DNA of 64,000 nucleotides, taken from Halorhabdus amylolytica (lineage in GTDB: Archaea > Halobacteriota > Halobacteria > Halobacteriales > Haloarculaceae). The position numbers and the translations under genes are program-made. Below are positions 102-4,492 of the stretch, piece after piece. Within the stretch, counting starts at the first letter, position 1; every line of letters starts with the position of its first letter. Under the pieces are notes generated by a model. It was not told the DNA's origin, did no database searches, and saw nothing but the letters and a program-made list of their open reading frames with translations. The stretch is from assembly GCF_004944975.1 (NCBI RefSeq), contig NZ_SPQG01000001.1, positions 33,157-97,156 on the forward strand, read 5' to 3'.

Positions 102-2054
102 TCAGACGACCTCGACGTCAGTGAACTCGAAGCGGGCGCCGCCGGCTTCACTTTCGGAGACAGTGATATCCCAGCCGTGGGACTCGGCGATCTCGGCGAC
201 GATGGCAAGTCCGTAGCCGGTGCCGTCCTCGGTCGTCGTGTACCCCGATTCAAGCACATCATCGCGTTCCTCAGGAGGAATCCCGGAGCCGTCGTCCGCG
301 ACGTAGAAACCGTCTTCGAGGTCGCCAACAGTTACTGTTACAGCTGTATCTGCGTGTTCGAAAGCGTTCCTGACGAGATTCTCGAGAAGTTCCCTGAGCT
401 GGCCGGGATCGGCACGGACGGTCCGATCGGTCTCGACCGAGAGCGTCGCGTCCCCCGTCTCGACGGTGTCCCAACAATCCCTGGCGGCAGCCGAAAGCGC
501 GATCGGTTGGGGATCGGTCGCGGATTCACCTTCGTGAGCGAGCGTCAGCAAGTCGTCGATGAGTGTCTCCATCCGTTCGTGGGCCCCCGCCACGTCTTCG
601 ATGTGCTCGCTGTCGCATTCCTCGGCGACGAGACCGAATCGGGCGACTGCGACGTTCAGCGGGTTCCGGAGGTCGTGGGAGACGATGCTCGCGAACTCTT
701 CGAGGCGGTCGTTCGTCGACTCCAATTCCTCGCGGGCGCGCTTTCGTTCGAGTTCGTAGCTGGCCCACTTGTTCATCAACCGGACGAGCGTCCGTTCGGC
801 GGCAGTGAACGGACGGGTGCGTGGCTCCGACGCGGCGAAACACAGCGTCCCGTAGAGCTCGCCGTCGACGACGACTTTGCCACCGATGTAACTGCCGAGT
901 TCGAAGACGTCGTATGCGTCGTCGTCTTCCCAGCCCGCGGTGATGGCGTCCTGGATGGCGAGCAAGCCGTCGGTTTCGATCGTCCGCCGACAATAGGCTT
1001 CCGACAGCGGACAGGACTCCCCGGGTTGTAGTAACTCGTGGTCTCCAGAAGACTGGACGATCGTCTGTGTCCCGGGATCTGGGGGGTCACCGGACTCGAT
1101 CCGTGAGAGGAAGCCGTAGGGTAGATCGAGTTTCTCACAGCCGAGTTCGAGGAGACGGTCGATCTTGGTCCCGAATCTGAGCTCCGGGTCGGTCGTCACG
1201 TCGTAGATCCCCTGTAAGAGATCGACTGTAGCTTCCCGGTCGCGGCTCCGTCGTCGGCGTTCCGTGATGTCCTCTTGAAACCCGACAAAGTGCGTGACCG
1301 CACCCTCGTCGTCGGTGACTGGCGCTAACGTCACCCGATTCCAGAACGGCGAGCCGTCCTTTCGATAGTTGCGGAGTTCCACCGTCACGGGCTCCTCGTC
1401 GTCGACCGCCCGTTGCATCTCGTCGACAGCCGACGGATCGGTGTCCGGGCCCTGCAGGAATCGGCAGTTCCGGCCGAGCACGTCGGACTCGTCGTAGCCC
1501 GTCAACTCCTGGAAACGCTCGTTGGCATAGACGATCGGGTTGTCCGGCTGTCCGGGATCGGTGATGACGACGCCGACCGGCGCCGCGTCCATGGCTCGTG
1601 CGCGCGGACCGATCGGTCGCGTACGACTCCCCTCGTCCGTCACAGGCGCGAGACGGTGGCGATCCGACCTGTCAGAACGATCCACGCGATCCTCAACGGC
1701 AGCTTCGACGCGTTCGACGAGTCGCTCGACCCCGTCGCGCTTCGGGACGTACTCGGATACCCCTGCGGCGATGGCCCGGCTGGCGACCCGTTCGTCGCCC
1801 GCGACGCTGTACAGCACGATGGGGAGCTCCGGGCACGTCTCCCGAACCGTTTCGAGGAACTCGATGCCGTCTCCATCGGGCAGTTCGTCCGCTGTGACGA
1901 TGGCGTCGATCGACTCCCTTCGGCATCGTTTTAGGGCCGTCTCGGGATCCGTGACGGAATCGACGTCGAGACTGTTGGCACTCGTCTCGAGCCCAGTCGC
2001 CACTGATCTGGGATTCGGACCGACGTAGAGAACTCGTCTCGTCCCTTCACTCAT
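102..2054 (-). CDS. LOV-domain sensor histidine kinase with N-terminal receiver-like domain
   Basis: A 650-residue cytoplasmic signalling protein with no membrane segments. Order of domains: receiver-like (about 7-120), PAS/LOV (about 154-268), GAF (about 280-425), HisKA with phospho-acceptor His460 in SHDLRNP, then an HATPase domain with ADDGSGI and GTGYGLAI boxes. The PAS domain carries the LOV core GRNCRFLQG with Cys197, plus Asn229, Asn239 and Gln260 where LOV proteins contact flavin, so blue-light sensing by a flavin-cysteinyl adduct is expected. The receiver keeps Asp56 and Lys105 but has GPNP where the Mg-binding acidic pair normally sits. The gene lies 120 nt downstream of mutL on the same strand. 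No output domain is present, so its partner regulator is unknown. Confidence 0.9.
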   Translation of the reverse strand: MSEGTRRVLYVGPNPRSVATGLETSANSLDVDSVTDPETALKRCRRESIDAIVTADELPDGDGIEFLETVRETCPELPIVLYSVAGDERVASRAIAAGVSEYVPKRDGVERLVERVEAAVEDRVDRSDRSDRHRLAPVTDEGSRTRPIGPRARAMDAAPVGVVITDPGQPDNPIVYANERFQELTGYDESDVLGRNCRFLQGPDTDPSAVDEMQRAVDDEEPVTVELRNYRKDGSPFWNRVTLAPVTDDEGAVTHFVGFQEDITERRRRSRDREATVDLLQGIYDVTTDPELRFGTKIDRLLELGCEKLDLPYGFLSRIESGDPPDPGTQTIVQSSGDHELLQPGESCPLSEAYCRRTIETDGLLAIQDAITAGWEDDDAYDVFELGSYIGGKVVVDGELYGTLCFAASEPRTRPFTAAERTLVRLMNKWASYELERKRAREELESTNDRLEEFASIVSHDLRNPLNVAVARFGLVAEECDSEHIEDVAGAHERMETLIDDLLTLAHEGESATDPQPIALSAAARDCWDTVETGDATLSVETDRTVRADPGQLRELLENLVRNAFEHADTAVTVTVGDLEDGFYVADDGSGIPPEERDDVLESGYTTTEDGTGYGLAIVAEIAESHGWDITVSESEAGGARFEFTDVEVV

Positions 2055-2174: not shown

Positions 2175-4337
2175 TCAGTCCAGCCGGCGGACGCCGTGGC
2201 CGGGATAGTCACGTTCGAACCGGTCGGCGAGTTCGTCGTCGTCGACCTCGATGAGGACGGGGCGGCCGTGCGGACAGGCGTAGGGGTTCTCACACTCGTC
2301 GAGCCGTTCTAGCAGGTCGACGATTGAGCCCTCGGTCAGCGACGTATTGCCGGTGATCGAGGGGTAACACGCCAGGTCCGCCAGCAGGTCGTCTGCGGCG
2401 GCCTCGACGGTCGAACCCGGTTCAGTGTCCGTATCGACGAACGAGGCGAGGACGTCGCACAACAGTTCCGGATCAGCAGTGTCGGCCAGCAACGTAGGGA
2501 CCGTCCGGACTGCGATCGTCCGATCGTCGACGCGTTCGGCCGCGAACCCGAGTCGCGAAAGCGCCGGTTGAAACGAATCGAACAGTTCGACTTCACGGGC
2601 GGTAAGCGTGAGTTCCACCGGCTCCGCGAGCGTCTGGGTCGTCGTCTGTCCATCGAATTCCGCCCGAAGCCGCTCGTAATTGATCCGTTCGTCGGCGGCG
2701 TGCTGGTCGATCACGATCAGTCCGGTGTCCGCTTCGGCGACGACGTACGTCTCCCGGAACTGTCCGAGGAGCCGCATCGCCGGGAGCGAGTCGAATTCCC
2801 GGTCCAGCGCCTCACCTTCCCCGAAAGTGACCTGCTGACCGCTGTCGACGACGCGACTGTCAGTCGGCGGCTTGCCGTCCGTCTCCCGATCCGTCACCGA
2901 GTCATCGGATCGATCGACCGATCCGGACTGCGTCTCTATGTCGTCACCGTCGTCTGGTGAGTCCTGAACGCTCGCGTCATCCGTCGTGCCACCTGGCCGT
3001 GTGTCGGCCGATGCACTGGCAGTTCGCTCGCCTGTAGTCTCCGGGTAAACTGTTTCGTCGTCGTTTGACGGGGCAGTATCGGACGGTCCGGACGAACCGC
3101 CAGTCCAGTCGGCCGACTCGGACGGGCGACCGTCTTCGGGAGAGGACTCAGGCGTCGTCGGACGGGCGTCTTCGCCAAAAGCGGTCTCTGTCGTCGTCGG
3201 ACGGGTGTCTTCGTCGGGTTGACCGGACGGTTCGGACCCTTCGTCAGGGGCTTCCGATAAGTGAGGGTCGACGGTCGTCTGTTCGGGCGCGGACCGCCCG
3301 CGCGGCGCGCTCGACCGGAGCAACCCTTCCCGCAGGAGGGCGGACTCGACAGCAGTCTCGATCTGTTCGCGGAGCCCCGCCTCGTCGACGAATCGGACTT
3401 CCATCTTGCGGGGATGGACGTTCACGTCGACAGTGCCGGCAGGCAACGACAGGTTCAACACGGCGAACGGATAGCGATCGGCGGCAAGTTGCTTTCCGTA
3501 CGCGGAGACGACGGCGTTACGGGCCGCCTTCGACCGGACGTAACGGCCGTTGACGAACATCGAGAGGTACTCTCGGCCGGCGCGGTTGGTCTCGGGATGG
3601 CTCACCAGTCCAGAGACGTCGGTCAGCGGGCCATCGGGGAGATCCCCGGAACCGAGTTCGATCATCGATTCGGCGACCTCGCGGCCATAGACCGCCATGG
3701 TAGCCTCTCTGAGTGATCCGTGCCCGCTCGTGGCGAAAATCTCCCGACCATCGTGTTCGAGTGCAACGGCGACGTCCGGGTTAGCCAGCGCGTAGTTCGT
3801 GACGATCGTGTTGACGTGGTCGAACTCCGTCGCGTCCTGGCTGAGATACTTCCGGCGGGCAGGAACGTTGTAGAAGAGATCGTCGACTTCGACAGTGGTC
3901 CCTTCAGGACAGCCGGCGGACTCGACGGTTGTGACTTCGCCGCCCTCGACGTGCAGGCGCGTTCCGCGATCGCCACCGCGGGGACGCGTTGTTATCGTCA
4001 GCCGCGAGACGGCCCCGATCGCGTGCAGCGCTTCCCCGCGAAATCCCAGCGTTGGGACCCCCGATTCCAGGTCGTCGATGTCGCTGATCTTGCTCGTCGT
4101 GTGCTCCCGGACAGCCGTCCGGACCTGTGACTCGGTCATGCCGACGCCGTCGTCGCTGACGCGGATCCCGTCGGTCCCGCCAGCTTCGATCGCCACCCGG
4201 GCGCGTGAGGCGTCGGCGTCGAGACTGTTCTCTAGGAGTTCCTTGACGACCGACGCCGGACGCTCGACGACCTCCCCGGCGGCGATGCGCTCGACGGTCG
4301 CCCCGTCGAGTTCCTTGATCTCCGTCACTTCTGTCAT
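2175..4337 (-). CDS. mutL: DNA mismatch repair protein MutL with endonuclease motif
   Basis: 720 residues from the chosen start; an in-frame ATG 54 nt upstream only adds a non-conserved leader. The N-terminal GHKL ATPase domain shows ERIAAGEVVERPASVVKEL, DDGVGM and GFRGEAL motifs. A long acidic Ser/Thr-rich linker (roughly residues 350-520) joins a C-terminal dimerisation domain. This domain contains the nicking-endonuclease signature DQHA-x2-E-x4-E starting at Asp544 and a late CPHGRP metal-site motif. These features mark the MutH-independent MutL type that nicks DNA itself. It faces mutS (6691-9411) across two genes on the other strand, and the LOV kinase follows it. Confidence 0.97.
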   Translation of the reverse strand: MTEVTEIKELDGATVERIAAGEVVERPASVVKELLENSLDADASRARVAIEAGGTDGIRVSDDGVGMTESQVRTAVREHTTSKISDIDDLESGVPTLGFRGEALHAIGAVSRLTITTRPRGGDRGTRLHVEGGEVTTVESAGCPEGTTVEVDDLFYNVPARRKYLSQDATEFDHVNTIVTNYALANPDVAVALEHDGREIFATSGHGSLREATMAVYGREVAESMIELGSGDLPDGPLTDVSGLVSHPETNRAGREYLSMFVNGRYVRSKAARNAVVSAYGKQLAADRYPFAVLNLSLPAGTVDVNVHPRKMEVRFVDEAGLREQIETAVESALLREGLLRSSAPRGRSAPEQTTVDPHLSEAPDEGSEPSGQPDEDTRPTTTETAFGEDARPTTPESSPEDGRPSESADWTGGSSGPSDTAPSNDDETVYPETTGERTASASADTRPGGTTDDASVQDSPDDGDDIETQSGSVDRSDDSVTDRETDGKPPTDSRVVDSGQQVTFGEGEALDREFDSLPAMRLLGQFRETYVVAEADTGLIVIDQHAADERINYERLRAEFDGQTTTQTLAEPVELTLTAREVELFDSFQPALSRLGFAAERVDDRTIAVRTVPTLLADTADPELLCDVLASFVDTDTEPGSTVEAAADDLLADLACYPSITGNTSLTEGSIVDLLERLDECENPYACPHGRPVLIEVDDDELADRFERDYPGHGVRRLD

Positions 4338-4492
4338 ACGGGTGTCGATGCCCGATTGTGACGGCAGCGACTTGAGTCCCCCGCTCACCACGTGATACGG
4401 AACGTCCTATCATCTCGTCATAATGCTCTCTCCCATCAAAACGTCCCCAATCACGCCAAACAGTTACGGTACGTGCCCTCTTACCGTGACAC

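Follow-up and report, generated by a model that had tools for sequence, protein, structure and literature searches.

A predicted blue-light LOV histidine kinase of Halorhabdus amylolytica and its most likely accidental position beside mutL

The window analyzed here, a 64,000-nucleotide stretch of the Halorhabdus amylolytica genome, carries on its minus strand, at positions 102 to 2054, an unbroken 650-codon frame with normal GC3. It is a genuine gene, whose product is a predicted blue-light LOV sensor histidine kinase. Pfam assigned it five domains, all encoded on the minus strand, in the order degenerate receiver, LOV, GAF, HisKA, and HATPase: Response_reg (residues ∼5 to 122; positions 1689 to 2042; E = 4e-14), PAS_9 (residues 153 to 268; 1251 to 1598; E = 1.5e-25), GAF (residues 299 to 428; 771 to 1160; E = 3.7e-5, with conservation in agreement), the HisKA dimerization and phosphotransfer domain (residues 451 to 507; 534 to 704; E = 5e-10), and the HATPase_c catalytic domain (residues 549 to 645; 120 to 410; E = 2e-19). 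The upstream neighbor, also on the minus strand, is mutL (2175 to 4391, with a likely true start at the ATG at 4337; TIGR00585, E = 4e-155), which we do not count as part of the light system; both mutL and the mutS of the window are clear from family profiles. We recognized no response regulator gene beside the LOV kinase, and no Rfam match to an RNA element anywhere in the window. The LOV histidine kinase proposed by the initial annotation was thus borne out by the ORF, by its Pfam domains, and by a LOV match far beyond chance. The residue positions it gave were all exact: Cys197 of GRNCRFLQG (codon 1464 to 1466, minus strand; the predicted adduct-forming cysteine by alignment with YtvA), Asn229, Asn239, and Gln260. 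The GRNCRFLQG motif starts at residue 194.

The LOV domain is ∼50% identical to that of Bacillus subtilis YtvA, and such identity to solved LOV domains settles its fold. The YtvA-LOV chain 2pr5 was matched by phmmer at E = 5e-36, solved photoactive LOV domains were matched at E ∼1e-36, and the engineered LOV kinase 4gcz, a YtvA-FixL fusion that shares this LOV identity and the photochemical residues, was matched in both its LOV part and its ATPase part. The NCBIfam model YtvA_fam matched residues 153 to 275 at E = 1e-48; its whole-protein score fell under the family cutoff, as expected, because only one domain is common to both proteins. YtvA output is of the STAS type, not a kinase. Residue-by-residue alignment with YtvA and other solved LOV domains placed the GXNCR(F)LQ motif and its adduct cysteine, the hallmarks of a LOV photoreceptor domain, within the PAS fold, and Cys197, Arg198, Gln201, Asn229, Asn239, and Gln260 are all retained; N229, N239, and Q260 are the flavin-ring contacts (N94, N104, and Q123 in YtvA).

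The flavin phosphate site is less typical. Two YtvA arginines, R63 and R79, mark positions that we take to be the FMN-phosphate contacts in LOV structures. The first is kept as Arg198; the second is occupied by Gln214 (codon 1413 to 1415, minus strand). Among 28 other haloarchaeal LOV domains, which were picked by their NCR motif so that the cysteine in them is fixed by selection, this position is Arg in 25 and Ala in three; Gln occurs in the window protein alone. The description of this domain as having a complete LOV core therefore holds for Cys197, Asn229, Asn239, and Gln260 but is slightly too strong at Gln214, where YtvA and 25 of the 28 others have Arg. Flavin binding, and with it the flavin affinity predicted for the domain, may be weakened or altered as a result. 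This unusual residue is one reason to consider that the LOV domain does not sense light in vivo but serves as a redox or constitutive flavin sensor; another is that LOV domains lacking the cysteine, among them the one in a halobacterial Bat, show photoreduction and chemical reduction of flavin with conformational change (PMC4682037). We consider such a role unlikely, since Cys197 and the flavin-ring contacts checked are kept.

LOV proteins are common in these archaea: we found a LOV motif in 304 of 392 genomes, representing 86 of the 95 genera of the order, and the reversed control pattern was rare. The statement that archaeal LOV kinases are known, with few characterized, proved accurate. A 2014 catalogue listed 167 archaeal LOV proteins, either kinases or HTH proteins equipped with RR, GAF, and PAS modules, from either 82 or 85 species, both counts being given in that paper (PMC4844311). 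It was not until 2025 that a canonical archaeal LOV domain was first studied (PMC12202551). ALovD-1, which belongs broadly to the same type of archaeal LOV domain, binds FMN and photocycles at salt concentrations of up to 3 M (PMC12202551). The window kinase is a further member of this widespread, already known family. Like the haloarchaeal LOV histidine kinases of the 2014 catalogue (PMC4844311) and of the 2025 Lake Diamante set (PMC12202551), it has LOV together with RR, GAF, and PAS modules before the kinase, and the full GXNCRFLQG motif; it differs from them in its receiver lacking the phospho-accepting Asp, in the Gln at the second FMN-phosphate position, and in its location beside mutL.

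In alignment with intact haloarchaeal receivers, the N-terminal domain has Ala55 (codon 1890 to 1892) in place of the phospho-acceptor Asp, and Gly12-Pro13 in place of the acidic pair. Since it lacks both of these features of a functional response-regulator receiver, it cannot work in the way that receivers ordinarily do; the receiver is likewise degenerate in the non-LOV kinases of the same genus. The kinase core is intact. His460 of the H box, within the motif HDLRN, and the adjacent Asp461 are invariant in all 35 aligned sequences, the G1 and G2 boxes of the HATPase domain are invariant or nearly so, and this combination of H-box histidine and intact ATPase motifs identifies a HisKA-type sensor histidine kinase. 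In the GAF domain, Cys355 is invariant (35 of 35 aligned sequences) and Cys405 is present in 32 of the 35 aligned GAF-kinases, a hint that this GAF family may have a redox, metal, or cofactor role, possibly as a second, redox input.

The genome of H. amylolytica contains one other exact N-C-R-F-L-Q motif, in a Bat-like protein on contig C20. Nearly full-length relatives of the window kinase, 46 to 49% identical, occur in five of six congeners (G001, G002, G003, G004, and G006). Like the window kinase, they consist of a degenerate receiver, one PAS-fold domain, GAF, HisKA, and HATPase; unlike it, they have a PAS domain without the LOV cysteine and lie at a different locus. In the three genomes inspected (L135:400-6407, L136, and L137), the genes near the non-LOV kinase include one related to photolyase (DPRP), a UspA-like gene, and one for a TauE-like permease, the last two identified by eye. 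The window gene is the only full-length match to the non-LOV congener kinase in its own genome. We rejected orthology with these congener kinases on the grounds of their missing LOV cysteine and of the GAF-kinase tree, in which the five group with a protein of another family (support, 100/99) and the window gene is placed elsewhere, with weak support (83/80). We found no ortholog with the identical full domain arrangement; LOV-GAF-kinases with other N termini do exist (for example, L145 and L147). LOV proteins fall at several separate places in the GAF-kinase tree, which suggests that LOV domains have been joined repeatedly to a GAF-kinase unit. The LOV domain tree is poorly resolved as to the source of the window LOV domain.

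As the initial annotation stated, mutL lies on the same strand as the kinase gene, 120 nt away; it ends at 2175. A single-species adjacency of this kind is weak evidence, because chance alone puts about half of all neighboring gene pairs on a common strand. None of the six congeners, in which mutL was located at 67 to 71% identity, has a LOV kinase beside it: in five, the gene after mutL is an apparent PfkB-type sugar kinase gene (identified by eye), while the sixth, G001, shares mutL, tRNA-Lys, and the TrkA/DHH block with H. amylolytica but has a DUF7344 gene in the place of the LOV kinase. The mutL to tRNA-Lys segment thus holds a DUF7344 gene in one genome and the LOV kinase in the other, with both flanks syntenic (L132:2602-4376 versus L134:8577-9501), and is reminiscent of a small, variable locus next to a tRNA gene. 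Of 44 genomes of the family, only that of H. amylolytica has a LOV motif and mutL within 14 kb of each other; the other 43, congeners included, have none, a test that counts exact motifs among the matches listed, so that some LOV genes escape it. Nor was mutL present in the haloarchaeal LOV loci that we fetched with flanks of up to 6 kb. On the neighborhoods checked across the genus and family, we reject a conserved operon with mutL.

It is improbable, although slightly less so than what follows, that the kinase gene is an accessory gene, decaying or chimeric, with no working signaling role: of the seven genomes of the genus, a single one has it, the segment that holds it, flanked by mutL and a tRNA gene, is different in G001, and its receiver is degenerate, but the 650-codon frame, the GC3, and the kinase motifs have all remained intact or normal. 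The proposal that light is tied to DNA repair, whether as a general coupling of blue light to mismatch repair through cotranscription with mutL or as a capture downstream of mutL in this species alone that would tie the expression of the kinase, or via it a repair response, to mismatch repair, is very improbable in either form: read-through from mutL is possible, as the 120-nt same-strand gap has no T run longer than two on its coding strand (by eye), but other genes follow mutL in all six congeners, the 43 other family genomes lack a LOV motif within 14 kb of mutL among the matches listed, histidine kinases act on response regulators, and we know of no step leading from a histidine kinase to MutL. 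The position of the kinase next to mutL is most likely a chance arrangement peculiar to this species.

A different light-related linkage is conserved. Each of the seven genomes of the genus has a Bat-like regulator clustered, within a span of at most ∼8.5 kb, with a bacteriorhodopsin-like gene and genes for lycopene cyclase, a CrtI/CrtD desaturase, and a Brp/Blh beta-carotene dioxygenase (in H. amylolytica, outside the window at L158:3547-11287, equivalent to G000:C20:367546-375286; congener loci, L178 to L183). The regulator comprises a degenerate receiver, a LOV domain that has the cysteine within the complete motif GVNCRFLQ, GAF, BAT, and HTH_10. LOV-Bat, desaturase, and dioxygenase genes also occur together in two genomes of another genus of the family. 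In a halobacterial Bat LOV domain studied previously, Pro takes the place of the cysteine (PMC4682037), and Halobacterium salinarum Bat was reported to lack the LOV cysteine in a survey that had already noted a LOV-HTH arrangement resembling Bat (PMC4844311). We found no description of the LOV-Bat cluster linkage in the literature searched, the coverage of which was incomplete. The cluster suggests that rhodopsin and retinal synthesis are under direct blue-light control, and, judged by gene neighborhood, it is this cluster, and not the mutL site, that forms the conserved, predicted light linkage of the genus. Congener G001 also encodes an extra large LOV-containing sensor protein besides LOV-Bat (L139:2-2560).

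As for the window gene, we favor, with a probability of about 0.8, a soluble blue-light sensor histidine kinase in which the LOV signal would be relayed to a kinase/phosphatase whose target, a response regulator, would be encoded at another locus; the pseudo-receiver would have a structural role, and the mutL adjacency is most likely accidental. In the mechanism that we infer, which extends to flavin binding, the photocycle, the direction of control, and the target of the kinase, blue light would cause the LOV-bound flavin to form an adduct with Cys197. The signal would then pass along the helix after the DIT motif to the GAF domain and through the signaling helix to the HisKA/HATPase dimer, where it would alter either His460 autophosphorylation or phosphatase activity toward the response regulator; the latter output is considered because HDLRN is a motif of the kinase/phosphatase type. 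The N-terminal receiver, which cannot undergo phosphorylation in the usual way, is probably a dimerization or docking module, and the GAF domain with its invariant Cys355 is probably a second input.

Although archaeal LOV kinases abound, hardly any has been studied, so that a soluble representative whose domain order is clear can serve as a test protein. The absence of mutL linkage in the relatives checked spares a misleading hypothesis, and the LOV-Bat/rhodopsin cluster is the better place to seek what blue light controls in these archaea.
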